Assembly: GCA_950295325.1 (NCBI GenBank)
Contig: OX485805.1
Coordinates: 8,742,501 to 8,806,500 of the forward strand
DNA length: 64,000 nt
Origin: Polytrichum commune
Lineage: Eukaryota > Streptophyta > Polytrichopsida > Polytrichales > Polytrichaceae
Direction: 5' to 3'
This document shows positions 554 through 47,265 of the stretch, piece after piece; position 1 is the first letter of the stretch, and every line of letters starts with the position of its first letter. Made by a program: the position numbers and the translations under genes. Below the pieces are notes generated by a model, which was not told where the DNA came from, made no database searches, and saw only the letters and a program-made list of their open reading frames with translations.

Positions 554-1075
554 AGAAAATCAAAAAAACATATGAACAACACATCACAAAAATATGGGGT
601 GAATGTTGGTTTTGTATAGAGTTGTATGAGGAAATGAATGGAAATGAAAACGTGTGATACAATAATGGATGGAAATGAAAGCGTGTGATACATAGCATCT
701 AATAATACAGAAGTGGACATAACACAATAATAGTCAGAGAATATTTATGAACAAAATATACAGAAAATGGCGTCAAATACTAAAAGTATTGGTAGAAAAC
801 AAAAATATATATGTGTGGACTGACGTAGATGTAGAAAGAATTAAAATTGGTTGGAAAAATAAATTACTGCTCATTATGAATAGAACAAAGTAGGTGTCAG
901 AAAATTTTGGCAGATATAACAAAAATAAACACATAATGACAAACGCGTCGAAATATCTCGCTCATTGAACGCCAATTACAACATGTGATCGTAATATACG
1001 CAGGATTTTGTGAGATAGATACATTGGAAGAATAAATGATAGTACCTGATAGAAAACATATCATGGACACCAACG
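554..1075. other. AT-rich spacer between two divergent genes
   Basis: This spacer separates the starts of the minus-strand gene (553) and the plus-strand gene (1076). It is AT-rich, with no coding frame I trust. Its position suggests a bidirectional promoter, but no convincing TATA box or repeated regulatory site was picked out. Confidence 0.3.
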
Positions 1076-1357
1076 ATGGTGGACGATGTAGAGAGAACAC
1101 CTGTGAGGCCGAAGAGAAGACGTAGGAAAGCTTTGTATTTCACTTCCGAGAAAAAGAGGTTCAGACTGAGTGTGGGAAAGAAGAATGCAAATAAGAAAGG
1201 GAAAAGAAACTTGTTGAGTACGGTAGAAGAAACTGTGAAGATACTGGATTTTGATGCGATGGAGGATGATGAAGGTGCAAAGAGCAAAGAAGATATAGAT
1301 GATCGTATATCAGAGTCCGAATTGAAGACGGGTTCAAAGAAGACGACAAACAAAAAG
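1076..1357 (+). CDS. First coding exon of a small basic/acidic protein
   Basis: An ATG at 1076 opens a 94-codon frame that ends at a strong splice donor, AAG|GTAAGT, at 1357/1358. The peptide carries a basic cluster near its start (RPKRRRRK) that looks like a nuclear localisation signal. A lysine-rich centre follows, then an acidic/charged tail (DAMEDDEGAKSKEDIDD). A shorter frame from an ATG at 1063 stops after 20 codons, so 1076 is preferred. No domain is recognised, and no downstream exon could be joined with confidence before the repeats at 1480. It might be a 5' exon of the locus that follows, or an independent or decayed gene. Confidence 0.35.
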
Positions 1358-1479
1358 GTAAGTCAGTTCAACGTTCACATAATTTGATAGTGCATAAGTT
1401 GTAAGTTAGGACGGAGAACCTTGTACGTTCACTCACATATCATGTAGTAGCAATTTATAGAGGTTATAAATTGGAAAGG

Positions 1480-1850
1480 AAAAAACCTATACATTAATGC
1501 ACATGGTATATAACAGAAATTTAGGAAGGCTAGAAGTCAGGAGGAGAACGTTCAGGGTTTATAAGAGCAACTTAGGAGGCGAGAAGTTTGGAGATAAAAC
1601 CCTATACGTTAACGCACAAGGTTTATAAGAGCAACTTAGGGAGGCCAAAAGTTGGGAGCTAAAACCCTGTGCGTTAACGCAGAGGATTTGTAATAGCAAC
1701 TTAGGAAGGCCAAAAGTTGGGAGGAGAAACCCTGTGCGTTAACGCACAGGGTTTGCAAGAGCAACTTAGAAAGCAAAAAGTTGGGAGGAGAAACCCTGTG
1801 CGTTAACGCACAGGGTTTGGAATAGCAACTTAGGAAGGCCAAAAGTTGGG
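1480..1850. repeat. Palindrome array A1, about 65-bp period
   Basis: About five tandem units of 64-66 bp, each centred on a palindrome whose half-site is ACCCTGTGCGTT followed by its reverse complement. Palindromes start near 1483 and 1599 (diverged), then 1664, 1729 and 1793. The last two are perfect 24-mers. Units are joined by a shared spacer (GAGCAACTTAGGAAGGCC). The palindrome recurs at 2280-2445 and 2996-3030 with different spacers, so the palindrome and not the spacer is the constant part. Confidence 0.85.
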
Positions 1851-2279
1851 AGGTAAAATGACTAGGAGAGCCTAAAAGTAAACAAATATCTATTGTATGA
1901 ATTTAAATCGATCTTCAGAGCGTAGGAACAAAAAAACCATTCAAAACGGGGTTAGAATGCAAGAAATGAGAAATATGTCTACTCAAGTATTCATGCAATA
2001 TGTTATAGGAGCTAGAAAATGACACAAAATAGCATAATTTTTTTTTTGCCCCGAAACCCAAAATCTACGAGGTGGCCCAAAACAAGAAAATAGATAGAAG
2101 AATAAGAAAAGAAAATGATTTCAAACCAAAACAAAATATAAGAAGATTTTGTAGCTACGGAGATTTAGATAATATAGCATATTTTATTTTATTTTTTTGG
2201 ACCCCATTAGCATTTTTCCAGATTTTACAAGTTTTGGCAAATCTACTAATTCCAGACAAAATTTTTTTTTAGCAAATTC

Positions 2280-2445
2280 ATGTCTCGGCCCTGTGCGATT
2301 AACGCACAGGTCTTATGCGCTAACGCACAGTGGCCTCAAAGTTGCCAGCGCAGACCCTGTGCGTTAACGCACAGGGTCTACTTGCCTAGCTAGAGGCTTC
2401 ACAAAGTTGGGCAAGTTAATGCACAGGGTCTGCGCTGGCAACTTT
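2280..2445. repeat. Palindrome group A2 inside a larger hairpin
   Basis: Further copies of the ACCCTGTGCGTT palindrome near 2289 (diverged), 2346 and 2415. The stretch 2333-2362 (GTTGCCAGCGCAGACCCTG...) is mirrored at 2415-2444 (...CAGGGTCTGCGCTGGCAAC). The whole segment can therefore fold into a hairpin of about 30-bp arms around an inner palindrome. Confidence 0.75.
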
Positions 2446-2499
2446 CTAGCGGCTATGCGGGGCACGAAGAGCCACGCTAAATATGGCCGCAAGGACGAG

Positions 2500-2512
2500 T
2501 AGTATAAATTGC
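2500..2512 (+). promoter_or_regulatory. Possible TATA box of the 3246 gene
   Basis: TATAAAT lies at 2503-2509, followed by a pyrimidine-rich leader and candidate 5' splice donors (ACAG|GTGCAG near 2590, CAAG|GTTTGT near 2601). A matching acceptor (TTTTAG) ends at 3236, ten bases before the ATG. If both are used, the palindromes at 2660-3030 lie in a 5'-UTR intron. This is inferred from consensus sequences only. Confidence 0.3.
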
Positions 2513-2659
2513 CACACCTTCAAAGCATTCAGTCTTTTTTCTCTCATCTATCGAACCGGAGCTCGTCGCTGCAAGCTCTCTCATCTACAGGTGCAGTACA
2601 AGGTTTGTTTGTACTTTCGTGATGACTGGGTAATTGCGCATAATTAGGCGTAAATTGCG

Positions 2660-2965
2660 GGCAGTTTGGGTCGGCCGACCCAAACTGTCTGCCTGGTTTG
2701 GGTCGGCCGACCCAAACTTTCGCCTAGTTTGGGTCGCTCTGTAGACGGATAGTTTGGGTCGAGCGACCCAAACTAGGGTGTACAGAGCGACCCAAACTAG
2801 ACAGACAGTTTGGGTCGGTCGATCCAAACTGTCCGTCTAGTTTGGGTCGCTCGACCCAAACTGTGAGCATGGTTTGGGTCGTTCGACCCAAACTGGCTGT
2901 AGGTGGTTTGGGTCGCTCGATCGAAACCGCGTGGACAGTTTGGGTCGTTCGACCCAAACCTCGCG
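2660..2965. repeat. Palindrome array B, about 40-bp period
   Basis: About nine copies of a palindrome with half-site AGTTTGGGTCG, two central bases, then the reverse complement of the half-site. Copies begin near 2662, 2695, 2727, 2749, 2808, 2839, 2871, 2907 and 2937. The first two and several later ones are near perfect, while others keep only one arm. Flanking bases vary. Long minus-strand frames across this region are a by-product of the repeat. Confidence 0.85.
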
Positions 2966-2995
2966 CCCAACATTTGTAGACCTGTAGTTGGACAC

Positions 2996-3030
2996 ACAGA
3001 CCCTGTGCGTTAATGCACAGGGTCTGCCCT
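2996..3030. repeat. Isolated A-type palindrome
   Basis: One further copy of the A palindrome (half-site GCAGACCCTGTGCGTT, with a single mismatch in the centre) placed after array B, about 215 bp before the ATG at 3246. Its extended arms match those of the hairpin at 2333-2445. Confidence 0.7.
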
Positions 3031-3245
3031 TGTAGTTTTGGGGTGAGCGGCCACCCTTATCGTACAATATTTAAAGGTGCAAATGGTAGTGTCTAGAATA
3101 ATTTTTGTTATTCTTCCCTGTGTTCGTGGTATTCTGTTGTTATTGTTGTTGCTATTGCTGTTGTTTTTGTAATGTTATTGCTAATGTGTTTCTACTGGTT
3201 TTGAAATATTTATGAAACTTATTTCATTTGTTTTAGGACCAATCA

Positions 3246-5740
3246 ATGGATTTGGAGAGAACGACTGTTATTTCTACTGGTGATGATTCTACAATGCATT
3301 CAACTCAAGATCGTCCATTTCAACAAGTTCATGTTCATCAGGATATATCGTCAAATCTTCATAATAAGAAAAAGAAAAAAATAAATGAATCTCTCGATAA
3401 TTTTGACTCGGATGAAGATAATGATGGTGACAATAAAACCTATCAACAGAAAGTCTGGGAGCTTACGGACAAGCGAAAGGTTAATTCCACTTCAACAATT
3501 TCCTCAATTCGTGCTGGACTGAAATCTCGTTTGTGTGTACCCTTATGTCGCATGGTTCCAATGCCTATTGTGCGTCCTGCTTTGAAAGGCGACATCACTA
3601 AATTGGAGGCTGACTTTTTCAATAGTTATCGTGATGGTGACCGTGTGTTTTATCTATCGGCTACCGACTTTAAGGGAAATTTTCAATTTGTGGATGACAA
3701 GGTTCGTGCATCTTAGAGCCCAAATTGGGCTCAAGCTAATGCGGTGTTTGAAACTGAATTAGATGCCGATCCTTCATTTACATCATACAAGAACAAGATG
3801 TTATTCATATGGGATGGTAATCACAGATTTTTTGCTTGGAAAAGTTATATTGACCGCTTGCATACCGAAGATTACGAGCGTCATGTCTTTGTGGATTCCA
3901 TCATTTTGGCGCCCGAGCTTGATGACATTCCAAGTTTGTTGACTGCTATACACGACATCAACAAGTAATGTTTTTACTTCTTTATTTTCATTTATTTCTG
4001 GTTTGTATTTTGTTATTTGAATTATATCATCCTAAATCCATGAATTCAATATTTTTTCAGGTCAACAGAAAACTCTCACGTTTCTACCAATTCGGTGCAT
4101 ACTTTGTATCGGATGCAAAGTATTGGCACCATGCCTTTGACTTCTTTTAAAAAACAACTGGATCCTAGAAGTTATAAGCGATGTGAGGAGAAGTCCGTTG
4201 AAACTTGGTATTCTTTGACGCGGCCAATTTTTCTTGATTATATGTACAGTGTAAGTTTTCTAGCATTTTCTACTATGTTTTTAATGTTTATTTATCTTTC
4301 ATTTACATCACATCTATATGTACTTATTAATTTTGGATTTTGTTTGATTTTTCAGCAAGAACTTGCCGAGGCTAGCGATATTGCTCTCAACCTTTACAAT
4401 GAAACCCATCCTCTTGAACGAACTTCAGAAGGAGATTCTAAAGCAATGTCCGCAGCTGTCAACAAAAAACGTGCAATGTTGTCTTCTAGTTTTACAAAAC
4501 AACTAGCAATTGCTGACATCAACCTTACCCCTGCTTTTCTTGAAGAAGTTAAGCACCATTGGGGTTCATTTTCGGTGCCTGAAATGTTACAAGAGAAACT
4601 TCATCGTGTTGCTGTTAGTAATGTGGATCCAGATGTCAAAGTCGGATGGCTCAAGCTTTGGAATGGCAATAGATTTGACAAAGATGCATTGCATTTTCCG
4701 AAATCACCCCTCTCTGATTCTGCACTTGATGATTGGTTATCAAAGGCTACATATTGGGCACAGTTAGAGAAAAAAGTTATTGAAGAGCTTCAAAGTATTC
4801 TTTCATCTCCTCTTCAATTGCCTGCAGATGTGCCTACTCTCTCCGAATATATCCAAACCTGGAAGTTTGCGGCTTTCAATTCAATATTCTATCGTGAATT
4901 CAAAAGCGGAAAAGTAAAAAAATACAACGTTTGGGATGAGCAACCGAATATTGATCTTGCTATGAAGCGTGTTCTATACAGGTACAACTTATTCTTTACT
5001 ATTTCTTGATATTTTTTCATTACATTTTACTTTTCATTCAATATTTGGCTTATAATATTTTTGTGTGTAGGTATTTCCGATATGTTTTGATTCCGCACAA
5101 ATGCGTTATAGGAGAACCTCGTTTTTTTCCAAATTGGTGTGACACTGGTGCGGAAGACTCATGCATGTTCACTACTGAGATTTGTTTGGATTGGTCGCTC
5201 CCACACTATGAGGATTGTGGTTGGTATCTTGATTGTCCTAAGGATGCATGTCCGTCAAGTGAGAAGACAATCCGTCAGATAAATGATGCCAAAAATGTAG
5301 ATCCTCGTGATACTGCAATTTTGCAAGCACAAATTGTGCAGCTTAAACTTAGAGAGCCAGAACCAAAAGAGACAAAACGTCGTAAGAGAAAATATGTTCC
5401 TGAAACCAAAATACAAGGTCAATCGGAAATTTCACAACATGAAGAATTGCTTGTTCTTTCCACTGATTTGGATAAGAATACACTTGGAGGCGAAAGTTCA
5501 AAATCCGGGTGCGATGTATTGGAATTTCATTACTCCAGCACCTATGACGCTATTCATCGTGCGCCAACGAATGTTTTGAGAAAATATTTATTCATACTGA
5601 AGAACTTTCTTACGCTCTCTTTTGCTCGATCTACTGCTGTCAAGAACAAGTCTGAAGGGGTTGAAGTAGGCCCTCATGAGTGGATCCAATGGCGGGCATT
5701 TCTTGAAAATCCAAGCCGAACCCGGATGATAGGTGTATAA
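3246..5740 (+). CDS. ParB/sulfiredoxin-like signature protein, four exons, one in-frame stop
   Basis: Four exons fit consensus splice sites: 3246-3964, 4061-4250, 4356-4981 and 5071-5740 (introns 89-105 bp). Together they give 734 codons before TAA. The first 70 residues are polar, with a lysine run (KKKKK) and an acidic stretch. Residues 105-230 hold a conserved-looking block (MPIVRPALKGDITKLE...) ending in LFIWDGNHRFFAW. DGNHR at about 190-194 resembles the key motif of ParB-like nuclease/sulfiredoxin folds; this is inference from one motif. The middle is helical and rich in W/F. Later there is a basic patch (KRRKRKY). One in-frame TAG (3714-3716) interrupts an otherwise continuous frame, so the copy is either inactive, a recent mutant or a sequencing error. 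The end (MIGV) may instead splice at 5732|GTGTAT onto the methylase-like exon at 8437, with which it is phase-compatible. It sits downstream of palindrome arrays A and B. Confidence 0.6.
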
Positions 5741-11717: not shown

Positions 11718-11754
11718 AAATGATATGAGGTGCACACCTGTATTACACAATGGT

Positions 11755-12172
11755 CTACATTGATGTTGATGACGTGGAGGACGAAGACATTCATGATGTT
11801 GTCAGTGTGGAGGAAGCCTTGGGGGTAGAGGAAGGCATACAGGTTGAGAACCTGGCAGGCGTAATTACTATCCTTGGTGATAGTGATGCAGATGAAGAAG
11901 GCAATCTTGATGATAATGGTTCTGGCTTGGTATTTGGTTTCCGGGGATGAGGTTGAGGTTGAGGTTGATGACGTGGAGGAGGAAGACATTGATGATGTTG
12001 TCAGTGTGGAGGAAGCCTTGGGGGTAGAGGAAGGCATACAGGTTGAGAACCTGCCAGGCGTAATTACTATCCTTGGTGATAGTGATGCAGATGAAGAAGG
12101 CAATCTTGATGATAATGGTTCTGGCTTCTATTATCGTTTCATACATTTTTTCAATGATTGCTTGCGATCTTA
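11755..12172 (+). pseudogene. Tandemly duplicated acidic coding fragment
   Basis: Two copies of a stretch of about 185 bp (11762-11946 and 11965-12140) encode an acidic peptide (DIDDVVSVEEALGVEEGIQ...VITILGDSDADEEGN). The copies are over 90 percent alike and lie in different frames, so they do not form one protein. No domain is recognised. They resemble the acidic tails of the nearby genes and may be leftovers of another copy. Confidence 0.4.
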
Positions 12173-13197
12173 GGCAGATGCTGGGTTGAATAAATGGTAA
12201 AGTACACTGCTAATGTTTGCTAATCCAGGTGGTAACTTAGATATCTGTTTTGAATTTTTTAGAATTCAGTTTATTGGTCATAAGGTTGTATTTGTGTTTG
12301 TTTGGGTAGGCTAGGTGTTTAGTTTTATTTGCAGACTCGTCGGTAGGAGAATATGTGCCAGTTGTGGGCATTTGTGAATGGGATTTATCATCTGTCTAGC
12401 CCCCTCCAAAAACAAGTCCGATACTTGACAACAGATCTTTCTAAATCTTATACTGTTTACCCTCATGTATTTATGAATGTATTTCAGTCGTTAACATTTA
12501 TAGAGTCAACTTCACAAAGAAGTGAACACCATTTTGTTAACAATTAACAGGTTTAACATTTATAGTGTGCAATATGTATGGAGTAGAATAAAGTAAGCAT
12601 TTGGAAATGGTTAACACTTATAGGTGTAACAGTAATAGAGGGTGGACCGTATGTGGAGATTTGTTTTCGCCAACCTCCTTTATGTCACGTTCAAATAGTA
12701 AATATTATTTAATTTACCGTATTATATAATATAGCACACCATTTCGGTAATTATAATTGTGACGTCATAGTGATGTAAGCCCTAATTTTGTATTTTATTT
12801 TAATATTTCTATGTTTCAAAAATCTATTAACTTTATGAATAGGGAAATGTTACTTTATTTCCACAGTAATAGAGTCCATAACTCTCCACATTTTCTAAAA
12901 ATAGTTCTTCCATTTTCCCTCAATCCCACGGTTATAGGTGCCTTTTCTCTCTCATATCATGTCTCAAATTGAGTTCTCCGCTCTTCGGTCTCTGCTCTTC
13001 GCTCTCCGCTCGCATACTAACTTTCCCCGAGTACTTAAAGCTCTCCCCCACATTGCAGAGCTCTTTTTTGCGGCAGACTCCAAGTGTGCGCTCCAGACAC
13101 CCGACGGAGGGCGCTCGACCCATTTTCTTGTGCGTGAACCGTACACTCATAGGTGTCAGACTGCCTTATTCCTCAAATACCGCCGCAAATACCGGAG
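12173..13197. other. Non-coding stretch before palindrome array C
   Basis: AT-rich to about 12900, then a GC-richer pyrimidine stretch (12930-13190, CTCTCTCATATCATG, CGCTCTTCGG) that may be the leader of the gene at 14605. No supported gene. Confidence 0.3.
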
Positions 13198-14480
13198 ACT
13201 TACGAACGCGCGTTCGTAAATCTAGAGTGCGCGCATGTGTGTAGGGATCAGATATATAGAGGTTGGTTGGATATTTACGAACGTGCGTTCGTAAATACCG
13301 CTTTGACATATATTATACATCCATAGATTTATAAACCCATAGATGATTCTGCAGTCAGACAATATGACAATGTTAACGAACGAGCGTTCGTAAATGCGAA
13401 TTTGGACGTCCGACATTCACTGGCAATGGGCAAGAGTCCACGAACGCGCGTTCGTAAACATTGAAAGCGCGGAGACGGAGTATGGTTCATCCTCAAATAA
13501 CAGTGGGGAGTTTACGAACGTGCGTTCGTAAGTGTCAACGCTTGTTTTCAACATGCGGAGACTCATGAATATAATGGGTAGGAATATGTATATAAAATAC
13601 TGGAGATTTACGAACGCGCGTTCGTAAATCTGGAGTGAGCGCATGTGTTTAGGGAACATATATATCGAGGTGGGTTGGATGTTTACGAACGTGCGTTCGT
13701 AAATACAGACTTGACGTATATTATACATCCAGAAATATATAGATCCATAGATGATTATGCAGTCAGACAATATGCCAATGTTAACGAACGAGCGTTCGTA
13801 AATGTGCATTTGGACGTCTGGCATTCACTGGTAATGGGCAATATTCCACGAACGCGCGTTCGTAAACATTGAAAACTCGGAGACGGAGGATGGTTCATCC
13901 TCAAATGACATTGGGTAGTTTACGAACGTCCGTTCGGAAGTGTCACCGCTTATTTTGAACATCCGGAGACTCAGGATTATAAGGGGAAGGAATATCTATA
14001 CGAGTTTGCAAACGGAAGTTCCTAAGTAGCATCGAGTTCACCAGATACACATATGACGTGCGAGAGTTCACGAACGGGCGTTCGTGACTTCCCCATGGAA
14101 GTCTCAGCGATGCATTCAGGACACCTCCCTGGGCATGCACACACTTATATATGTATTCACAACAAAATGTGAGACATAGATACGAACGTGCGGTCAAATA
14201 AATGCAAGGAATGTCTCTAGATCATGACTTCGGGATGTGGGAAACTGCTCCATTTGCCCCACATATAGAGAGTATGGGCGAGGGATGTGGATGGGGGGCA
14301 CATGGAAGAAGGCATTCATATGCGTCACTGACTCGGAAGTTTTGTGTACACATACAACAAGCATCCCTCCACAATGGATACGGTCCATGTTTTAGTTGAC
14401 ATACAGTATGACGGGGAACATTCGAACGCCCGTTCGTATATATGCCCAACTCAAACAGCATCGTGTCGATATGCAGACGA
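13198..14480. repeat. Palindrome array C upstream of the transposase-like gene
   Basis: At least twelve copies of a 20-22 bp palindrome with half-site TTTACGAACGC followed by its reverse complement. Good copies lie near 13200, 13273, 13373, 13436, 13509, 13607, 13680, 13780, 13847 and 13918. Weaker ones lie near 14063, 14175 and 14420. Central bases vary (CGCGCG, CGTGCG, CGAGCG) while the arms are kept. A block of about 408 bp carrying five palindromes is itself duplicated in tandem (13200-13540 and 13608-13945). The array ends about 125 bp before the ATG at 14605. Confidence 0.9.
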
Positions 14481-14604
14481 ACGTTTGGATATCCCCACTA
14501 TGACTTGTTCTGGATTGTGACTTAGGGAGACTAAACTCTTGCCGTCTTTGTGATTGACTTCGACTTGTGGTGATTCCATGTTCGCGTCTTGAGGTGGGTG
14601 GGCG

Positions 14605-17600
14605 ATGGATATGGGAGATAGTGCATTTGAGTTGTCGACGAATGCTTCATCGTCGGATACGGAATGTCGCCTCTCGTCGCCATCGGAGGATGATATTCGG
14701 TGGGTGAACGTCCTGGGTGTGTCTGGGGATTCATCCTCCCATGAGTCCTTGGAAGGGCAGGAACATTCCCAACATTCTGGGGATGGTAACGACGACATTC
14801 CATTGTGTGCCGGTTTCGGGAGGGAGCAGTGGGTGGACCTTGATGTTATTCTTGTGAACGAGGATGGTGTCCCCGTGGCAAATGGCATTTGTAGAAACTC
14901 CGATCCCCTTGAATGTATTGATGCCAACTCCCTTGGATTGGATGATGTTGGTGTTTGCATCTTGAATTCTTTGCTTCCATTGGAAGTCCCGTTGACTTGG
15001 AGATTTTCCTTGCGGCGATGGCCCCTGCGTCGAGTTCTCCATGAAGAAGTAAGCTTGTGGGATCATGGGCGACGGCACAAGCAAACGCAGTCAGCTTTGT
15101 TGGCCGCAAGACATCCTCGGAAAGGTCTGCGCAAATACGATTCTAGTCGCGTGTCTGGCAAACAAAAAGAACGTAGACGGGATTGCATACTTGGAGAGGA
15201 CTCTATCCATCAAGTGTCCACAAAGGATTGTTGCGCGAAGAAATGTTGCCAATTTTTTCCGCGGGAAAAAATTAGGTCCCTGCGTCAAGAGATGTGGCTT
15301 GCAGATTTTCGTATGAGGTCAGCAAAAAAACTTGAGGTCCACAGGAATTTGCACGTTGACACCCACGGCAATAAGGTGGTTACCCTTGAAAATGTGGAAG
15401 TGTGTTGCACTGCATGGTATTCCATCCATGCAGTCTCCAAGGCTGATTTTTATAGGTTTAGGAAGTATTCTTTGTTGGGTCGCCGTTCTCGATTTCATGG
15501 CAACTCAGGCACCAAGAAACCTAGGAAGGCTACACTCCAAGCGTCCGCGACACTCTCCACCATCATAGTGCCGTTGGCTGATGCAATGCCTCACAAGACG
15601 AAGACATTGTCGTCCGGGGAGAAAGTTGTTCAAATGGTGTTGCCCAAGGGCACAAAATGGAAGAACATCTTAACGGACATAAACGAAGTGGGTCGCAAAG
15701 CTAAATGTGGACACATTTCTTTGTCCAAGTTGAGTGTAATTAAAAACCAACAGTTTGCAGAGTACATTTTGAAAATACCCGGGGACAAGTTTGCCAAGTG
15801 TACGGCTTGTGAAAAATACAAAGGTCTTCGAGACGCCCATCCTATAGGCACAGAGTCCCATACTAGACACCAAAGAAAATACATTGAGCATGTCAACAAG
15901 CAGGATTACTACAAGAATCGTCAAGATTACTACAAGAATCGTGCACTATCGATAATGAGGCCTGCGGAGGTCCTTACTGTCATCCATGATAAAATGGACC
16001 ATGCCAAAACCGCGTGCCCTTGTTATACACGCAAAATAAAAGCTACAGATGGTCTCTTCAAGTTGCCCGTAGCTGTCACAGGTTCGTATGGAATCACAAA
16101 TGTGTTTGGAAGGATTTCCAATGTGTTTGGGTTTGTTTGGCATATGTCAAACTTCATCCGTCCGTTGAGTGGTTATCCCATATTTTTGTTGTTTATCCAT
16201 CGTTTTTTTTTCGCAGGTATGATCGCCCACGGCCATGGGGACGTTAAATATGCCCATTATGGTTTGGATTTTTACCCTGGCGATGCCAACCACATGGTTG
16301 GTTCATTTGCAAAACTCTTGCGCGATCTTGAGAAACCGCCGATTCACTCTTCCCGTGCCCTTTTTGATGGTTGTGGAACGACACCCCTTTATGAGGCAGT
16401 GCTTCAGGGGAAGGAGATTTGTATGTCGGCATTGCCGGAACTACCTACAGAACCCATTTGTGCAAAACCATTGCCTCCAACTCTCCATGTTCAACTTGAT
16501 AATTGTGCTAAAGACAACAAATGTCGATATGTGTTTTGTTTTTGGTCATTGCTTGTGGCAAAAGGCATATTCAAAGAGGTGTTTGTGTCTTTCTTGATGG
16601 TGGGACACACACACGACGACATTGATGCATCATTTGGACGTTGGAGCATGAAGTTGCATGAAGAGGATTTTCCCACCATACCGCTTCTCATGAAATCATA
16701 CATGGATTTGGACAATGTGCCCGTGATCCCGCACATGATTGAGGAAGTACCAAATTTCAAGGCCTTCATCAAGCCATATATGCTAAAGGGAGAGGACCGT
16801 TTGGTGGGACATACGAAAGCACAACAATTCCGCTTCTATATGATGGATGATGGTGTCCCGGCTATGCAGTTTAAGCTTTTGTGCACATCTCCTAATTGGT
16901 CTCCAGAGGATGGTATACTCGTGTGGCGTCAGAACGAGGATGGGAAATGTTTGCTTCCGGATGGGGATCCGAAGCCTTGCAAACCCGACCCCATGAAGAA
17001 TGGGCTGGAAATCATCAAAGGCATATCCGGATTCATTGAGTATTGGAAAGAGTTGTGTGAGGAAGACATACCAAACGTGTTAGGGATACTTATGAACCGT
17101 TGATCGTGTATTGGGATCGCATTCGCTCAGCCTTGATGACACTTGGTGGCGACACACGTATAACTTTGACACAAGGATTTTGGCCACAAAGTCGTTTGAC
17201 AGTTGTCGAGTCCGACACGATGTTCTTCGATAATGGAGAGGTCCGTGAAGAGTTTGCAATGGACGAGCATTACGTTGGTCCAGCGCGCAATCGGCCGGCA
17301 CCGTCGTTTCGTGTGGGTGTTGATTGCCATGAAGGGCATATGGTCCTCGTACGAGCAGGAGATGAGGAGCACCCCAAACCAATTTGGTTGGTGAAAGCAT
17401 TGTCTTCACCCAATTTTGTCCGAACTAGCCCCAACTTTCGTCAAATTGAAGTGGAATATTGCCGTCCTAGCACCAAAGACCAGAACGTTCTCCGGACCTA
17501 TTTAGGGTGGGACACCAAAAAGAATTTCAAGTGGACAGTGGACTCAGCATATGGACCGGTTTGGATAAACACGGATACAATACTTTGTGCTTGGAAACCG

Positions 17601-17741
17601 CGTAAGGGCTCTAAATCGGAAACAATGACCATCCCCCAAAAACATATAGATTTTGCCAAAGACAACCTGGCACGTATTGCAACTATGGAAAAAGAAGCCG
17701 AGAATGGATATGAAGCGGAATATGGAGACGGGGAAACATAA
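14605..17741 (+). CDS. Large transposase-like protein with VGHTHDDID motif (DUF7869-like)
   Basis: The frame starts MDMGDSAFELSTNASSS and is open for 832 codons, with a likely in-frame intron at 16082-16216 (G|GTTCGT...TCGCAG|GT). After an acidic N-terminus come a Cys-rich segment (CCAKKCCQFFP), a zinc-knuckle-like KCTACEKYK (about 15795) and MIAHGHGDVKYAHYG after the intron. QLDN (about 16490) and MVGHTHDDIDASFGRW (about 16598) follow. The last two fit an RNase-H-like DDE core and the family I know as DUF7869, often element-borne; I name it from memory. Near 17080 the frame shifts by one base: DTYEPLIVYWDRIR continues in the next frame to the TAA at 17741, adding about 210 residues with a PIWLVKAL chromatin-reader-like segment. 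Apart from that single break the gene looks young. A truncated relative starts at 42292, also behind a palindrome array. Confidence 0.7.
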
Positions 17742-18039
17742 CATAAGTTGGAATTAAATGGCTCAACATAGGGGGACTTTATAGATTTGGTATTATTGCA
17801 ATTATTATATAATGTATTTATAATATTCAAATTTATAAATACGTTTGGGATGTGCCATACAATCCCATAAGACCCTTATGTATGGGATGCGCATCCTAAA
17901 CTTTATAATGACATAATACTATTTGATTTTGGGATTCGATTGTTTTTTCCAAGTGTAGTGCATGTTTATATTATGATATGAAGACTTGCTATTTTTAGCC
18001 CTGCAAATATTCTTTGCGGACGAATTTGTAAACCGTCAT

Positions 18040-18142
18040 GTTCCCAAAGTTCCATATGTTCACAATATTGGCATCCCAAACTATGGGCGTATTTTATTTT
18101 GAGACTTTCCAAAGTCTCCGATTAACGAATATAGTGTTATCC
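18040..18142 (+). repeat. Terminal-like repeat shared by three places in the window
   Basis: The stretch ending GTCTCCGATTAACGAATATA followed by GTGTTA is found again, inverted, at 38209-38295 (about 85 bp alike) and as a match of about 30 bp at 45336-45365. It lies about 300-400 bp after the transposase-like gene and may be the 3' end of that element. Confidence 0.5.
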
Positions 18143-33707: not shown

Positions 33708-34525
33708 AAGCTTCAAGGCCAATAAGATGTGCCACCAAAACAACTACAGCAACACAGACCTGCAATGCAAACCAACTTCATTGATTTGTGTTTTTAAATG
33801 CCTGCTCATATAAATGCAGGAGACTAACACGTGACGCCCCCAGCTCAACCCAGCTATTACATTAGCATGACAAGTGCAAACTTCTCTGCCGCCATCCAGA
33901 CAAATTTGAAAGAAAAATTTCCCTTTGCAATCAATCTATGATCCATGGCGCATGCTATTCATTTCACTGCTACAGTATGCATGAAACAAAACGACCAACC
34001 TGTATGCACTGCTACTGGCCGGAGATACACAACTCTTTTGCGACATGCTTTATATCTTCGCAAATCTGCTGAACATATCAAAATTCACATTACGCATCAA
34101 AATCTGCACTACTCGGGCTTTCATTTCCAAATCACCTCTAAAACGATAAAACAAACACACCACACCTTGTGCAACACATGCATAGCAAAGATCCATTTAA
34201 CATTGGCGTGAAGTAAGGATGCAAAACTGGTGGAAACAGCTTCCCGCAAACACACCACTAATAGATTGAAAGAGATGCATTTTCTGAGCAACTGTATATA
34301 TCCTGTCACTATGAGCTCAAATTTGCCTACAGGCATGTCAACATCTTTCGCTGTGGCACTCACCGCCCTAAATTTTCATCTTCCACGTATTATCACATAG
34401 CCTCTGTCTCTACAAAGAACCTGTTAAAGTAAGAATTACCCTTGAAGCTACTCTAGCTTCCGTCCATAGCCAACTTACCCACAAAACCAAGATGCCCGGC
34501 TATGGCTCCTCCACGTCAACATTCA
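33708..34525. other. Upstream region of the TNL gene, no gene seen
   Basis: Lies 5' of the TIR-NB-ARC-LRR start. A candidate acceptor (TGCATTGCAG, near 33760) may mark a 5'-UTR intron. Plus-strand frames here show no recognisable domain. Confidence 0.3.
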
Positions 34526-38208: not shown

Positions 38209-38295
38209 AACACTATATTCGTTAATTGGAGACTTTGGAAAGTCTCAGAATAAATTGGACCCATAGTTTCGGATGTGAATATTGTGAACGTAGGG
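38209..38295 (-). repeat. Inverted copy of the terminal-like repeat
   Basis: Reverse complement of 18050-18135 with moderate divergence, including AACACTATATTCGTTAATT and GGAGACTTTGGAAAGTCTC. Only about 85 bp match; sequence on both sides is unrelated. Confidence 0.55.
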
Positions 38296-38299
38296 AACT

Positions 38300-40400
38300 G
38301 TGGAGTCTCCAAACCCTCATTGCGAAACAGGAGAAATGAGAGAGAGAGAGAATTGGACCAAAGCAAAGGTGAAACCGGCAGAGGAGGAACGCGAGCGAGT
38401 GACTGAGAGCCTGCCGAAGTTTGCTGGTGACTGGGAGGCGGTTAGTGCAAAGGAACTGGGAGCCGGCGAACGAGGGGACGGAGAGCCAGCCAAAGAGCTG
38501 AGATGGCGGGAGACAGACAGGTGGAGGACGCCGGACGACGAGAGCTCAGCGAGGCCGGGCAGCGGGTAGGAGGAGAAGACCCGGTGAAGGACCCCCCCCC
38601 AGGCCGGGTATTTAAAGGTCGCTAAGAAACCAAAGGGCGGCTGGGGGGAAAAGACACGTTAGGTTAGGGTTGGCTACTAGGATAGGACATAGTAGCTAAT
38701 GGTAAGAAGGGTAGCTACTAGTGAGAATGGTAGCTAATAGTGAGAAGGGGAGCTACTAGTGAGAGGAGAGGCATAGCTAGAAGCTACTTAGTAGATTAGT
38801 AAGTAGAGATAGTAAGGGAGTAGGAGGATGAACCCGTAAAGGAGGATGACTATTTTTGGATGAACTTACCTAATTCCATTACCGTCAATGAATGGGGAGT
38901 AAACTTTGGAATGAACGGAGGTTATGGATGAGATTAGAAGAGTTGCACTCTTGGCACATCTAGACGCCTAATACATGCCCGAATGTACCCCATTGACTGA
39001 TCTAAATTTAGCACGTGTCAGTCCTATTAATAAGATCTGGCAGGGTCGGATTTAGACTGTAATTACATACAGTAGCTAAAATTAGTAAATACAAACATTT
39101 TACATTGAGAAAAGACCTAACCGCCTAATCCCCATTTTCCTAGATCTCAAAGCCTATATAAAGGGGGGCACTTAGGGGCCCTATAGGACCTCATTCAACG
39201 CAAGCAACTCGAGGTGGCGGACTAGAAGACCGGTGGCTTACGAAGACTTAAAGGATTGAAATATATCCTCGTGGAGTTTTAAAGGATTGAAATATATCCT
39301 CGTGGAGTTTTAAAGGATTGAAATATATCCTCGTGGAGTTTTAAAGGATTGAAATATTATCCTCGGAGGCTTTCGGAAACTTAAAAGGATTGAAATATTA
39401 TCCTCGGAGGCTTGAAGAAGACTGGAGGCCCTTGATACTGGAGGCCCTTGAGATTGGAGGCCCTTGATACTGGAGGCCTTGAGGTTGGAGGCCCTGGAGA
39501 TTGGAGGCCGTAAGTTAGAAAACCATTACGGGTCAACGATTCTTGGCGTCCGAGGTTTAAAAGTATTGATAAATCCTTGTGCCCGGAGACCGAGAAGGAT
39601 TCGGAAGTTTCTCAAAATTTAGAGAATTGGAGGACTTATAATTAGAAGAAAGTGGAGGCATAAGGCCGTGAAACAAAAGATTGGAACTTAGAATCTTTTG
39701 AGGAAAACTCGGAAACCGTGAGTGGCGTTAAATTAGAAATTCCACAAAAGAAAAGGGACTTTGGAGAACTTACCTTTTGAAGAGCTTGGAGATAATATTT
39801 TCAAAGCCATTGCATAAAAAGGAGATCTAACATGTGAGGGCTACCTTGGAGTTTTGGTGATCATGGATCGAAAAGTATGAAGTGATTTACTTGGTGAAAG
39901 GCGTCGGATTTCACCATCATACCAAGAGAAGGACGAACGAGAGATGGCTACATCGAGCATTACTCAGAATGTCATCTCTAAACACACCTCTTCAAATGTA
40001 CTCCAAATGATAGCCTAGGAATTGCAAAGGAACAAGGACTTGAGTAGATATAGAACAAAGATTCATCCAAATTATGTGAACTTTAGGAATTGAGTAGAAG
40101 AATGAAATCTTATGAATATACTTTAGTGAGGGAGTATGATTGGACCTTCAAAGGAATTGTGAACTTATCATAAACACACATTCTTAAATGGATTAAGAAT
40201 CTTTTACGATCATTCAAACCATGAAAGATATTGTATGTATGAACGATGTTCTCCCTAAAAACACTTAACCTTGACATTAGGGTTTCGGGGAACATAAACT
40301 TAAAGATATTCGTGCTAAATGACTTAAGACCAAGGTATAATCGCCTAATCATTGTCAACAATTAAATTACATCAATATTAAAAAGTTAAAGCATTTTTTA
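38300..40400. other. LTR-like non-coding region with short tandem repeats
   Basis: Contains TAGCTACTAGTGAGAA-type repeats (38680-38790), a TATA-like CTATATAAAGG (39152-39162), four 31-bp units from 39250 (AAAGGATTGAAATATATCC) and GGAGGCCCTTGA repeats (39411-39510). No coding frame was recognised. The promoter-like signals and composition suggest a non-coding LTR-type element, but ends and target duplication were not found. Confidence 0.35.
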
Positions 40401-40799
40401 ACTACAAACAATGAGTGAGACTAAATACAATTTCTAGTGTAGTAGGTATGAAACATAAATAATAAAACTAAACACGGAGGTATGGGTTGAATTCATATGC
40501 TTATAATATCTTAGACAATATTGCAGATGAATTCAATCCTTCCACACATAGGTCTAAGCTTGTATCAAAACAAAACGAGTGGGTATGTATTGAATTTATA
40601 TCCCTCTTGTACATTAAACAACCTTCGGGAATAAATAAATCCTTCCACACCTAGGTCTGAGCTTGTATTATTGCCTATAAGTACTAGCAAAATGTTGTTT
40701 TTGTTGGAGTTAATTTTGTATGGTGACATGTATTGTTGTGTTAAGTACTCAATTATAGAATATCAATATCAGACCTTAAAAACCATTCATCAAAAGTAA

Positions 40800-42152
40800 A
40801 GGTTTACGGACGCGCGTCCATAAACTTGCATACCTCTAGTGCCATGGTTCGGTATGGCACCTAAACTGACATCATGACCATGTGACATGTAGAGTATGGC
40901 AACGAGACTGTAGTGTCATAGAAGTTTACGGACGCGCGTCCGTAAACTTGCATACCTCTAGTGCCATGGTTCGGTATGGCACCTAAACTGACATCAAGAC
41001 CATATGACATGTAGAGTATGGCAACGAGACTGTAGTGTCATGGAAGTTTACGGACGCGCGTCCGTAAACTTGCATACCTCTAGTGCCATGGTTGGGTATG
41101 ACACCTAAACTGACATCATGACCATGTGTCATGTAGAGTATGGCAACGAGACTGTAGTGTCATGGAAGTTTACAGAGGCGCGTCCATAAACTTGCATACC
41201 TCTAGTGCCATGGTTCGGTATGGCACCTAAACTGACATCATGACCATGTGACATGTAGAGTATGACAACGAGACTGTAGTGTAATGGAAGTTTACGGACG
41301 CGCGTCCGTAAACTTACATACCTCTAGTGTCATGGTTCGGTATGGCACCTAAACTGACATCATGATCATGTGACATGTAGAGTATGGCAACGAGACTGTT
41401 GTGTCATGGAAGTTTACGGACACGCGTCCGTAAACCTCAAACCTCTTGGTGCATTGAATCTCTATTGCTTTGAGCATGTCTGTTGAGCTAGTAATGAGGT
41501 ACAGAGGTTTACGGACGCGCGTCCATAAACATGCATACCTTTGGTGCTATAGTTCTGTATGACACCTAAAATGATATGATGCCCATATGTCATGTAGAGT
41601 ATGGCAAGGAGACTGTAGTGTCATGGAAGTTTACGGAAGCGCGTCCGTGAACGTAGAACCTTTTGGCGAATTGAGCCTTTAATGCCTTGAGCATTATGTC
41701 CCCAAATTTACATCACGTCATTAAACCTACTTGCGTTCCGTAACCTACATGTGTCATAGTACTAAAATTTGACATTGTTAAAACACAATAGAAAGCGTGT
41801 ATGTTATTCTCTTCAAATTCGTATTGTCGTAAGGCCTGGGTATACATGTAAGTGGCGCATGGACCTCTTGGTTCCCTAAACCTCTATGTCTTGGACAACA
41901 CTAACTTTTGACATACGGATGTTTACGGACACGCATCCGTAAACCTATGTTGTATAGTTTGCCAAAGCCTTTACGCTTGACATTGACCTCTCTGACCACG
42001 ATGAGATTTAAAAATGCGCGTTCATAAATCTCTGGTGTTTTTGTTGTCTGAACCTTTGCGCCGACTATCCACAAACAGATGTATCCGGATGCGTGTGTGC
42101 TTGCACTAATAATGTTGTTACATGGAGGTATACGGACGTGCGTTCGTATACC
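40800..42152. repeat. Palindrome array D, 122-bp period
   Basis: Eleven copies of a 24-bp palindrome with half-site GTTTACGGACGC followed by its reverse complement. They start at 40802, 40924, 41046, 41168, 41290, 41412, 41507, 41629 and 41921, then diverged copies near 42005 and 42127. The first six are spaced exactly 122 bp, with a conserved spacer (TTGCATACCTCTAGTGCCAT...). The array ends about 140 bp before the ATG at 42292. Confidence 0.92.
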
Positions 42153-42291
42153 AATATGTCTTTGTTTGCACGCCATGAAAGCCACTATTGTCCACATTGT
42201 GTTTCATTGACAATAAACGTTATGATCATCCATGAAATTTATTAAATGGGATATTTTAACATACTCTTCATTTGGCTCTCTTGTAGTGGCC

Positions 42292-42884
42292 ATGGATTCT
42301 AACGCCGGTGATAGTGCATTTGAATTGTCTTCGGAAGCATCAAGCTATGGTAGCGACTTTATAGCTGTCGTGGAACATGAAAATACAATTGGTGTCCCCA
42401 ATGACGATGATGAAATCCTTCCACCATGTGAGGGTTATTCACGGGAATAGTGGATTGATCTTGATGTTGTCCTAGTCCTTGGTATGAGCGGAGTTTTAAT
42501 GCCTTCACTATTCCAATTTTAGGTCGTCGATGCCGCCTCTGCTGTTGATTATTCCAAAGACTGTGGGTTTGAAGACGGAGTTGTGGGTAGCCCTCCTGCA
42601 AAGGTAGCAAAACTCAACTACACTCCATCTTCATCTTCATCTCCTCCGCAATGAGAAGCACGTTCGCAACCCCACGGTCGACCAGACGTCTCTGCATGGA
42701 GGAACTCCGAAATGATGTCCGGACGTTTACGAACATCCCTGTCGTGCTTGTATCTTATCCCATGGATGTCCCCAAAGCTCAAACCAACACCCCCAAGGCC
42801 AAGGTGCCCAACTTTTGGAATTATGTGAGCCCAAAATGGTGCCCACATGTGGTGATTAACTCTTCGAAATCAATTTTAGTTTGA
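42292..42884 (+). pseudogene. Truncated relative of the 14605 transposase-like gene
   Basis: From the ATG at 42292 the frame reads MDSNAGDSAFELSSEASSYG, and later ILPPCEGYSRE-stop-WIDLDVVLV. This matches MDMGDSAFELSTNASSS and CAGFGREQWVDLDVILV of the 14605 gene. An in-frame TAG at 42448-42450 and later frame changes break it. Only the N-terminal part is recognisable, and the DDE core is absent. A TTGTAG acceptor just before the ATG suggests a 5'-UTR intron. Like its relative, it follows a palindrome array. Confidence 0.65.
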
Positions 42885-42889
42885 CTTTG

Positions 42890-44140
42890 ATGTGTTATGG
42901 TTATTCACAAAACATAAAAAGAGTGAAGTGTGGTTTGGATTTAAGTTTAGGCATTAGAATGTGTTGTGTAGTTATTTCAAGGTTTGATTTCAATAAGAGG
43001 ATGCCTTGATTATGTGAGTAGGGGGTAAAGTGAGGCAAGGTGAGTTCCGCGGGTTAAATGCCCACTTTTGGATCCACTTTGTTAGTTTAAGAAGAAGGAA
43101 GCTTGGTGGAAGGGGATTAGTCCCTACTTTGGAGGAGAGGGTTAAAGGATTGTGATTGGAGGTGCTAATCCTCTCACCCTATCCTCACCTCTCTCTCCCT
43201 CTCTCCCTCTCTCCCTCTTTGCTACTTAAGGTGTTTTTTCTCTCATTTGCCTCTCTCTCCATCAAGCGCTCTCAAGGGAGCAAGCTCTCAAGAGCTTGAG
43301 CCACGTGTGTGGGACATTAGTTTTTAGTGAATTTAAGTAGTTAAGCTCTTTCTCCCAATACCTCCCAAGTGAGTGAGCTCTTAGAGCTAAGATTGCACGT
43401 AGTGATTAGGTAGTAGTTAGTGAAAGTAGTGTGTTAGATTAGTTCATGAGTTAGGAGCAAGGAAAAGAAAAGAAAAAAAGAAGGAAAGACAACAAAAAAT
43501 GATTTAAAACAAATCTTTGATTAGTGATTAGAGGGGTTGTATTAAGGGTAGCTAGTAGCTGGAGTTACTACATAATTACTAGAACTGTGTGGGATTAGCT
43601 GTTGGAACCATTTACGACTGGAGGGATTAACTGTTGGACCCAGCTGCACTTGTGAAGATTAGCTGCTGGGCAGCAGCTACAACTGAAGGGGTTAACTGTT
43701 GGAACCCAGCTGCACTTGTGTGATTAGCTGTTGGGCAGCAGCTACGACTGAAGGGGTTAACTGCTGGAACCCAGCTGCACTTGTGAGATTAGCTGCTGGA
43801 ACCATTTACGACTGGAGGGATTAATTGCTGGACCTAGCTGCACTTGTGAGACTAGCTGCTGGGCAGCAGCTACGACTGAAGGGGTTAACTGCTGGAACCC
43901 AACTGCACTTGTGAGATTAGCTGCTGGGCAGCAGCTACGACTGGAGGGATTAACGGCTGGGACCAGTTGCGACTTATGAGATTAGTTGCTGGGCAGCAGC
44001 TGCGGTTGGTTGAGATTAGTTGTGGTTTAGCAAGTTAATATTAATGTTGTGTAGAGGGAACCACTAAACCACCCAATAGGGTGTTAGACAATTGTAGACT
44101 AAAATAGTTCTTAGACAAGTGTTAAGCAATAGAATAGGCA
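42890..44140. other. LTR-like non-coding region
   Basis: GA/CT-rich sequence (43130-43330, CTCTCTCCCTCTCTC), then TAGTAGTTAGTG-type sequence (43370-43610), with no coding frame. Composition resembles 7740-8290 (inverted) and 38640-38880. It may be an insertion that truncated the 42292 gene. Ends not defined. Confidence 0.3.
43590..44010. repeat. Minisatellite, about 80-95 bp units
   Basis: Five or so units built from GATTAGCTGCTGGGCAGCAG, CTACGACTGAAGGGGTTAAC and CCCAGCTGCACTTGTG. Some units replace the second block with CCATTTACGACTGGAGGG, so lengths vary. Confidence 0.75.
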
Positions 44141-44649
44141 AGGTGTGTGGAGCCTCATGTGATTGAATGTAACATTGACTATAGAGTAAAGTGTTTTTCA
44201 ACACTTGCACCTATCGTTCAAAATAACTTACTTGCATTATTAATGGAGAATGTGAAGGACTCTTGCAATGGCAAGAAAAATGGGGTGAAGATCAAAAGAA
44301 TGAGGGGAATGTCCGTAAGGGCATGTGCGGCTAAAGCCGCGGGTTGGACTCTTGAGAAAGCCAACTCTAGCACAAGCCAAGAGGCCAACATTAATAAAGT
44401 AAAATGAGTGAAACAATACATGTTCATTTGGACATGAAAATCACCTTGCACATGGTTCAATGTTGTAATAGATAAATGTGATTCTCAAAGTCATCACCCG
44501 GACTAGGACGCTTAAGGGTGGTGGATTTGGCCTCACACCTTCTAAAATTTTTCTTTGATGATTTCCATGTATTAGTGCATTTCCGTTTCTTGGGTTTTCG
44601 AACTTGCATCTGTAATTGCGCCCACTTATACTAACCCTCTTCATTATAT

Positions 44650-45020
44650 AAATTTATGGTCGTTGTTTCAGACCCCACTGTACTCGAATGTGGGCCGTTC
44701 ATTCTCGACTTCGTCATTAGATAGGAGAACCCTAAAGATTGCTTCTTGCGAGTCCGATCATTGTTTGGCGCTTCGGAGGAGTGCAAAACATTCGGTTTCG
44801 CAAACGCATTCGTATTCCACTTACAATACCACATCCCACAATTTGGTAGCCGGTCGGCAAATATAAACGAATGGCACATATTCCGGACCAATGAACAAAC
44901 AAGGTTAGAGCTGCAGATCCGAGATCTTCAGAGCCATGGAGGCCATTAAAACAGAAGAAAATGAAACGGCTGCAAAGGCTAATATTGCAAAAATAAAAGT
45001 AGTACGTTGTATTGATGATC
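44650..45020 (+). other. Possible exon remnants of unknown origin
   Basis: A candidate acceptor (GTTGTTTCAG, ending 44672) is followed by overlapping short frames such as NVGRSFSTSSLDRRTLK. A later frame, FRAMEAIKTEENETAAKA, ends DDPDI-stop near 45031. No domain recognised. They may be 3' parts of the element whose start is at 42292. Confidence 0.25.
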
Positions 45021-45295
45021 CAGACATATAGGTCATATCGACATACAATTAGTTGTCGCATGTACTGGTTGGTGATTGATTATATTTTAAGGACTTTGGC
45101 CCAAATATTGGATATTCCATTTGTATTTTGTATTTCAACCGTATTCAATAAATATGATACCAATTTTGTATATGCAAATATTTTTATATATCCCATTTTT
45201 TATTTTCGGTATGTATAATTGCATGCATTTGAGTCTCATAACTGTATCCAAAATTGGGAACATAGCATGTTTATAGTCTATTCCTTCCTACACAT

Positions 45296-47265
45296 GTGAA
45301 ATCCATGTCCTTAAATAGTCTCAAAATCATCAAAAAATCTCCAATTACCGAATATAGTGTTACATCCTCCAAATCGGACGTGAAGGAGTTGGAAGCGAGC
45401 GGCAAAGTTTCGGAATCCGGTGAGGAAGAGCCCGACATGGAGGAGGATACGGAGACCGACGTACCGGCCGCAAAATCTACTCGTAGTGGGGAGGCATCGA
45501 AACTTCACCATGGTAAGAAAACCGCAACCAAACCACCTCCACCACAGCAACATGATAATGAAACCATGGGCAATTCTAGGTACCCGGATAGGCCTCGCAA
45601 ACCGCTTGGGGAATGGTGGAAGAACCACATTCCGCAACCCCAAGATAAAGAGCATGCAAACATGGCAATCGTTGGGAAACCTAGAAATTTGAGAGAAACA
45701 TTTAAGTCGAATGATGCGAGAGAGTGGGAGTCGGCTATACAAGAGGAGTACAAATCTCTCATAGCCAACGTCACGTGGGAGTTGGCCCCATTGCCGAAGG
45801 GCCGCAAGGCTGTGAAGTGCAAATGGGTATTTCGCATGAAGAAGGATGCCAACGGCGTGATGATGCATTTCAAAGCAAGGTTGGTGGCCAAGGGGTGCTC
45901 GCAAGTGGAAGGTGTGGATTTTGGCAAAACATTTGCACCGGTGGCCAAATTCAACACCATACGAGTTATCATCGCAATCGGAGCCGCCATGGGGTTGGAA
46001 ATGCATCAAATGGACGTCAAAACCGCATTCTTGAACGGGGAATTGCACGTGGTCATCTACATGGAGCAACCGGAGGGGTTTGTCTAAAAGGGCCGCGAGC
46101 ATTCATATGCAAGTTGAAGAAATCGCTCTACGGATTGAAGCAATCCGGACGAGCATGGTACGAGTGTATTCACATATTCTTTGTGAATAGAGGCTTTACG
46201 AGGAGCCATGCGGACCACTCGTTGTATGTTCTCCAAACTTGCGACTACATTGTGATTGTAATCATATATGTAGACAACCTCATCATCTTGGCAAGTAACG
46301 TGGAGGTGATCAACGAGTTGAAGTCTAGCCTCGAGCGCGAATTCGAGATGAGTAACCTCGGCGAATTGCATTTCTTCCTCGGAGTCCATTTCGAGTGGGA
46401 TAGGAGGACGCGCACCATCACCATGCATTAACGAAGCTACATCGAAACCATTTTAGAGCGATTCGGTATGGGTGATTGCAAGTCCATTGCAACCCCGCTC
46501 GACACCAAGACCTCATTGGCAAAGCTTTTGGAGGAGAAATACAAGGAGCATTCACACGAAATGAAAGACATTCCGTATCAAAAAGCGGTGGGGTCGTTGA
46601 TGTACGCAATGGTGGCTATAACACCGGACCTCGCATTTGCGGTAAGCGTGGTAAGTCAGTTTATGTCAAAACCGGGTCCGATGCATTAGATGGCCGTCAA
46701 ACGAATCATGCGGTACTTGAAGGGCACCTTAGATATGAAGTTGCGTATCGGATGTCATCACATAAACCTTAAAGATTATTTGGATGCGGATTGGGCCGGC
46801 AACGTGGAGAACCGTAGGTCTACGTCCGGATACGTTTTCTTTGTTGGAGAGGGAGCCGTATCATGGAATAGCAAACGACAACAAACGGTGGTACAATCTA
46901 CAATGGAGGCGGAGTACATGGCCATGAACCGATGCACGAGGGAGGCCATTTGATTTAGGCAACTAATGGAGGACGTGGGTTGTTTTCAAGAGGAGGCCAC
47001 GATCATCATGTGCGACAACCAAAGTTCTATGACACTCACCAAGAACCCCACCAACCATGATAGGTCGAAGCATATAGACGTGCAACATCATTTTATTAAA
47101 GAACAAATTGAAAACAAAATTATAGAGCTAAAATATTGTCCAACGCAATATATGGTAGCGGATATTCTAACAAAAACATTAGCGAAAGATAGGCATGAGT
47201 TGTTAAGTGAAATAATGGGGTTGGAATACAATGCCACCTCGCAAAGTGGGAGTATTGGAGGATAG
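45296..47265 (+). mobile_element. Ty1/Copia LTR retrotransposon fossil (3' part of pol)
   Basis: Recognisable parts in order are a charged linker after integrase, reverse transcriptase (about 45680-46430) and RNase H of the Copia type (about 46760-47210). The order RT then RNase H at the 3' end is typical of Copia pol. Sequence after 47265 to about 47460 (promoter-like and A-rich) may be the 3' LTR, but no matching 5' LTR was seen. The copy is broken, with roughly four breaks, and gag, protease and the integrase core were not found. Long open stretches suggest it is not very old. It cannot be dated without paired LTRs. Confidence 0.85.

Follow-up and report, generated by a model that had tools for sequence, protein, structure and literature searches.

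Why three gene starts in a single stretch of moss DNA should each be preceded by an array of long palindromes, and what might recognise those palindromes, is the question raised by the locus studied here. The window, by which we mean the whole 64,000-nucleotide stretch that was analysed (C3:8742501-8806500), comes from a genome of 407.8 Mb in 64 contigs. Perfect palindromes with arms of at least 9 bases are far more abundant in it than in random sequence, with 23 in the window versus a mean of 0.45 and a maximum of 4 in 20 order-1 Markov random windows; nine of them belong to arrays A/B, six to array C and three to array D. The first-pass annotation, which had described the arrays as made of perfect palindromes, was right about their abundance but not about their perfection, as many of the sites in the window are imperfect. 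It had also placed the end of each array 125–280 bp ahead of an ATG, and this was borne out: the last site ends ~164 bp upstream of the ATG at 14605 for array C and, as read from the sequence, ~140 bp before the ATG at 42292 for array D and ~220 bp before the ATG at 3246 for arrays A/B. Of the arrays, which it took to be unrelated or distantly related in sequence, A/B are unrelated to the others and contain two different palindromes, whereas C and D represent two subfamilies of one transposon clan, with a single mirrored base in each arm distinguishing their palindromes (Table 1).

Table 1. Positions in the window of the palindrome arrays and of the elements and genes associated with them.
Feature	Position	Strand	Observations
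Arrays A/B	1480..3030	.	Belong to a different repeat family; two kinds of palindrome, CTGTGCGTTAACGCACAG and GTTTGGGTCGNNCGACCCAAAC
A/B-family gene	3246..5710	+	In-frame stop at 3714-3716 in the window copy
5'-truncated family-1 transposon copy	13029..18138	+	Matches of several copies begin at 13029; relatives extend upstream to the left terminus
Array C	13187..14500	.	12 TTTACGAACGNNCGTTCGTAAA sites at ≤4 mismatches; majority inside two 408-bp tandem units
DUF7869 gene, probable transposase	14605..17741	+	PF25273, E=2.8e-39
Right terminal inverted repeat	18111..18138	-	AACACTATATTCGTTAATCGGAGACTTT on the minus strand
Degenerate family-2 element	38209..45361	.	Terminal inverted repeat matches at 38209 (+) and 45361 (-); blastn to the complete family-2 element
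Array D	40802..42152	.	Sites of the GTTTACGGACGCGCGTCCGTAAAC type, a good number of them inside 122-bp units
DUF7869 N-terminus remnant (MDSNAGDSAFELSSEAS..)	42292..42450	+	In-frame stop at 42448-42450; similar start in the complete family-2 element

The window region 560-5710, which includes arrays A/B, belongs to a different repeat family; of 1629 candidates, 27 were scored, and the long matches among these are 93–98% identical. Its palindromes are unrelated to those of C and D, with 502 exact copies of CTGTGCGTTAACGCACAG and 9231 of GTTTGGGTCGNNCGACCCAAAC in the genome (control 0 for each), and in places the two share clusters; one GTTTGGGTCGNNCGACCCAAAC cluster on C1 spans ~10 kb (616088-626110), like the clusters of the DUF7869 elements described below. 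Repeated partial matches suggest that the number of tandem copies differs among members of this family. Its gene contains WDGNHRFFAWK, which appears ParB-like by eye, and pieces of it had no significant match in Pfam, NCBIfam or PHROGs. Possibly, the two kinds of A/B palindrome are read by two proteins. Elsewhere in the window, a long 75-bp tandem repeat of unassigned nature lies at 8930-10586, and minus-strand frames at 28896-33743 and 49799-54763 resemble, as judged by eye, NLR-type resistance genes, the latter with ~20 tandem 72-bp leucine-rich units and an adjoining protein-kinase-like frame.

Both C and D are located within members of one clan of DNA transposons of 16–17 kb with short terminal inverted repeats. 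A search with the gene that follows array C gave 749 initial candidates, and all of the 40 that were scored matched that gene; the terminus pattern AACACTATATTCG, at ≤2 mismatches, has 1077 + 1086 = 2163 matches in the genome (reversed control 0). A perfect 4-bp target duplication was present in nine of the ten facing terminus pairs examined and absent from one, and it is these duplications, together with the terminal inverted repeats, that identify the group as a DNA transposon. Three complete elements were examined, F018 and F027 of family 1 and G56 of family 2. The first of these (contig C2) is 16,279 bp long, starts with AACACTATATTCG, ends with CGAATATAGTGTT and has AAGT on both flanks, while F027 (contig C4) has an AAGA duplication, as read from its flanks; when both were extended upstream, the left end was found to have the same terminus as the right. 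G56, which combines L056 and L057 (C1:27947644-27964956, 17.3 kb), has the three genes of family 1, in unchanged order. The right end of the window's family-1 copy, at ~18138, is reached by 18 of the 20 copies fetched, L009 and L012 stopping earlier. No matching target duplication was found at the two TIR-like ends of the window's family-2 element (38209..45361), where Copia-like retrotransposon frames (45266-46431, judged by eye) occur at the terminus at 45361; a 65-bp tandem repeat with a further palindrome, TAGCTGCTGGGCAGCAGCTA, lies inside that element at 43588-44001. The clan may be an undescribed group of DNA transposons, as no such element was described in the titles and abstract starts of the papers listed in searches on DUF7869, ParB-like proteins and transposons, moss and bryophyte elements, and palindromes.

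Each of the three complete copies has a DUF7869 gene, a NIF-type phosphatase gene and a fast-evolving ParB-like gene; the orientation used for F018 places the DUF7869 gene at the right, and exon limits are our own reading of the frames. The DUF7869 gene, on the plus strand, scored 135.2 bits against PF25273 in the window copy (Pfam gathering cut-off 26); that copy has a frame shift near 17080 and consists of two overlapping frames. In L018 it is open from stop to stop for 1060 codons, a probable intron included, and the full 507-residue last exon is open in seven of the 20 fetched copies. Its product is the probable transposase, a role that we infer from the conservation of DUF7869 and its location beside the right end. 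The NIF phosphatase gene is on the minus strand (PF03031, E=1.2e-15), as is the multi-exon middle gene, which has the motif WIIDGQHSLEAS and is interrupted by a stop in F018 and open in F027. A ParB-like nature is weakly suggested for the product of the middle gene: it had no significant Pfam match, one of the four ParB-like pieces searched, the family-2 core, matched PHROG 1033 ‘ParB-like partition protein’ at E=0.004, and nothing comparable was found in PHROGs for two family-1 pieces. The core also matched DUF6551, DUF1015 and GmrSD_N at 0.04–0.09, under the Pfam cut-off, and these we take to be members of one ParB-like Pfam clan; a YEATS match in one member of the protein family, at 0.011, fell short of significance. 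Sequence searches of the PDB, the ParB-like protein included, gave no matches, nor did the NCBIfam search, and no DUF7869 relatives were confirmed in the viral contigs scanned. AlphaFold models of DUF7869 exon 2 and ParB-like exon 1 had mean pLDDT values of 29.1 and 32.5, respectively. No demethylase domain was found among the element proteins searched.

The palindromes occupy particular places in these elements. At ≤5 mismatches there are 26 sites in F018, 29 in F027 and 19 in G56, which lie upstream of each of the three genes and within introns and seldom fall in coding sequence. In F018 coordinates, sites precede the NIF gene (2358-2490), the ParB-like gene (8262-8727) and the DUF7869 gene (11737-12566), occur in ParB-like introns (5314, 5431, 6850 and 6908), and are present immediately past the stop codon of the ParB-like gene (3792) and in that gene's last exon (3902 and 4290). 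Only two of the 26 F018 sites are coding, versus 48% of the element's length (P=1e-5, for F018 alone and with our gene models). F018 and F027, with ~76% DNA identity across the region of the ParB-like gene, have sites at corresponding positions. In L033 and L034, two palindromes lie at corresponding places inside the last ParB-like exon and would be translated. None of the three complete elements has a site within 2.3 kb of its left end or 3.6 kb of its right end, and the distances from the two ends to the nearest sites are 2.4 and 3.7 kb in F018 and, in L055, which is shorter, ~1.6 and 2.5 kb. For this reason we rejected the possibility that the palindromes are subterminal transposase sites.

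It had been anticipated that other genomic copies of the gene would also have palindromes upstream, and this was the case for every copy examined in this genome. In 20 other DUF7869 copies, fetched from the 40 listed, there are between 1 and 12 upstream sites each at ≤4 mismatches (20/20; the fewest in L012 and L025, with 1 and 2, respectively), and the last site ends ~164 bp before the DUF7869 start in 13 of the 20. No sites were found in any of the 20 in the 3.5 kb after that start, a span that reaches the right end if there are no insertions, and the reversed-pattern control over the same copies gave 0.

One element shows that the sites can outlast the genes. Both ends and the intergenic parts survive in L055 (about C1:639070-648560, 9.5 kb), almost all of whose coding sequence is gone, and this element has 42 sites at ≤2 mismatches, many within a 160-bp tandem unit. 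The retention of sites by so gene-poor an element suggests that they help the DNA that carries them, beyond any effect on a neighbouring gene. Ratios of CpG were 0.92, 0.95 and 0.77 over the whole of F018, F027 and G56, respectively, and 0.55 and 0.57 in two element-free parts of the window; within F018 they were 1.42 in the promoter array and 0.49 in a site-poor intergenic part. These values fit a young or unmethylated element, yet they also follow from the CpG-rich sites themselves, and for that reason we have not used them as evidence.

A comparable layout is known from the VANDAL21 system of Arabidopsis, in which VANC21 binds a short motif in the non-coding regions of VANDAL21 and causes loss of methylation. 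The regions with the motif, ahead of VANA21 and within introns of VANB21 and VANC21, consist of tandem repeats, and these vary from one related copy to another (PMC5735166, PMC10398659). The two systems are alike in being multi-gene DNA transposons with a family-specific motif, arranged in tandem ahead of the transposase gene and inside introns of the other genes, in having targets that vary between related elements, and in combining a conserved transposase, a probable one in the moss clan, with a variable partner protein. They differ in the long CpG-rich palindrome, 4-bp duplication and terminal inverted repeats found here, and in their proteins: DUF7869, NIF and ParB-like in the moss clan, and DUF1985 and DUF287 in the VANC protein (PMC5735166). 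No match to DUF1985 or DUF287 appeared when pieces of the accessory proteins were searched against Pfam.

Based on this match in layout, we propose that the palindromes are binding sites of a homodimer that the transposon itself encodes, which would coat the element's non-coding DNA and keep its promoters free of silencing, and which may also auto-regulate the element's genes. That the sites serve an element-encoded homodimer which probably coats the element and counters silencing, like VANC, is the reading we favour, with moderate confidence. The idea of a methylation-controlled 5' region, raised in the first-pass annotation, is still viable for the arrays. The main rival is that the palindromes are simply operators through which an element-encoded dimer auto-regulates three promoters, with no anti-silencing role. 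The position of sites ahead of all three genes and their dimer-like symmetry are what such operators would lead one to expect, but the additional sites in introns and beside a stop codon exceed what operators need, and L055 retains large arrays though its genes are nearly gone; we therefore consider auto-regulation alone a serious but rather unlikely explanation.

Evidence as to the kind of protein involved in the proposed coating comes from the palindromes of the two subfamilies. The type-1 site TTTACGAACGNNCGTTCGTAAA (ACGAACG) has 2909 exact copies in the genome and the type-2 site TTTACGGACGNNCGTCCGTAAA (ACGGACG) has 1147, with none for either control. Thus the change of A to G in one arm is paired with T to C in the other at 1147 sites and unpaired at 43, these being the half-and-half hybrids (17 + 26; control 0). 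By nearest type, all sites of F018 (26/26) and F027 (29/29) are type 1, whereas 15 of the 19 in G56 are type 2, with two ties and two of type 1. Array D was assigned to family 2 by blastn to the complete family-2 element, and the element that holds it has nine sites at ≤2 mismatches, counted over its whole length; in 1.4-kb pieces of four more elements there were type-2 sites in two, a single short type-1 palindrome in one and none in the other. In a profile of 125 sites, there is almost no variation at the core positions, although selection of those sites at ≤2 mismatches itself favours conservation; the two central bases vary, and the changes tolerated at outer positions occur as mirror images (15 sites with T>A at position 2 and 13 with A>T at position 21). 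A mirrored base change with variation of the central two bases is as expected if two identical protein halves read the arms, and dimer-type recognition of the palindromes is well supported. The rarity of hybrids could also come from amplification of a few founder sites rather than selection, and the sites shared inside arrays derive partly from tandem duplication. The proposal in the first-pass annotation of sites for a dimeric, element-encoded DNA-binding protein is now well supported, with candidates for that protein.

The type of site follows the protein clade where our lists overlap. A search with the family-2 ParB-like core gave, among the best 150 of 927 candidates scored, 120 matches at 76–100% identity and then, after a gap, 30 at 54–55% that represent the family-1 clade and with which the scored matches end. 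Among the matches listed (100 places), six of seven type-2 clusters have a family-2 core within 10 kb and one has none, one of the six being the query's own element; the corresponding figure for type-1 clusters, again among the matches listed, is zero of six, one of these clusters being a single site and one having a listed family-1 core. Six of the 11 hybrid sites on C1 are within 10 kb of a family-2 core among the matches listed. Protein clade and site type therefore appear to agree, as far as can be judged from these sequence matches. Identity between families 1 and 2 is 32–55% for the ParB-like exons, 63–64% for NIF and 71–86% for DUF7869, and for F018 against F027, both of which carry type-1 sites, it is 82–83% for the ParB-like exons compared, 92% for NIF and 91% for DUF7869 exon 2. 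The ParB-like protein is thus the fastest evolving of the three, also where the site type has not changed. As a single site switch was observed, across which all three proteins differ, the switch cannot name the binder. A conserved probable transposase with a fast-changing partner is, by analogy, the VANA/VANC pattern, and the best candidate for the binder is the ParB-like protein, the DUF7869 protein being the putative transposase.

Bacterial ParB spreads from its parS sites, and a more specific form of our proposal builds on this. The ParB-like protein might load at parS-like palindromes, spread and so keep the element free of silencing, as a clamp independent of VANC in which site and protein change together and sister families are kept apart. 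In both cases palindromic sites lie close to a gene whose product carries ParB-like motifs; the differences are that this is a eukaryotic-type transposon with dozens of sites and that the best support for a ParB fold is E=0.004, and we regard the idea as speculative and rather unlikely. Recognition by a host factor, the palindromes being enhancer-like sites captured for expression, would account for the retention of sites in non-autonomous copies. It is improbable, however, given that, within this one genome, a single mirrored base separates the two subfamilies at most of their sites, that site type goes with the clade of the proteins which the element encodes in the places common to our lists, and that the unrelated A/B family has entirely different palindromes. 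Even less credible is the formation of RNA or DNA hairpins that act through transcript structure or small RNA, since, for all that the sites are inverted repeats and some lie within introns, the sequence itself is conserved beyond pairing and a two-base centre cannot make a loop unless the stem opens. Passive tandem repeats with a chance palindrome, grown by slippage, would explain why C and D are tandem and why site number varies among copies, but are very hard to reconcile with the recurrence of one palindrome at separate places in the element, in introns and at three promoters, and with its presence at matching positions in F018 and F027, two elements with ~76% DNA identity in the ParB-like gene region. 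A simple satellite and an RNA hairpin were both rejected.

The clan can be compared with other known transposon groups. MULEs have a MULE transposase and a target duplication of ~9 bp, in contrast to the 4-bp duplication in nine of ten pairs here and a conserved gene in which Pfam detects DUF7869 alone. Elements of the Spm/En (CACTA) group have terminal inverted repeats beginning CACTA, a 3-bp duplication and subterminal TnpA sites near both ends; the element-encoded TnpA binds repeated sites and counters methylation, which is the point of likeness. The comparison with Spm and TnpA made in the first-pass annotation fits poorly, as the sites here are palindromic, internal, with the outermost ones in F018 lying 2.4 and 3.7 kb in from its ends, and present also in introns, and membership of Spm was rejected because the ends are AACACTATATTCG rather than CACTA and the duplication is 4 bp, not 3 bp. 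Fungal DNA transposons with a TET/JBP dioxygenase similarly have an accessory gene tied to DNA methylation, but that gene encodes an enzyme (PMC12730594), whereas site-specific binding is proposed here. The moss clan may best be likened to the self-protecting, site-array kind of transposon known from VANDAL, with palindromic codes that are specific to each family.

How transposons escape silencing without harm to the host is an open question, for which VANC is the main worked case. If our proposal is true, the moss elements would represent a second, independent case of anti-silencing besides VANC, with unrelated proteins. Their code is very clear, being a 20-base palindrome that differs by one mirrored base between subfamilies and is present in thousands of copies, and this clarity, together with the open frames in several elements, makes the co-evolution of site and protein and the insulation of sister families directly testable. 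Potentially, ParB-type spreading in a eukaryote could be tested as well, and new sequence-specific tools for the epigenome could follow.
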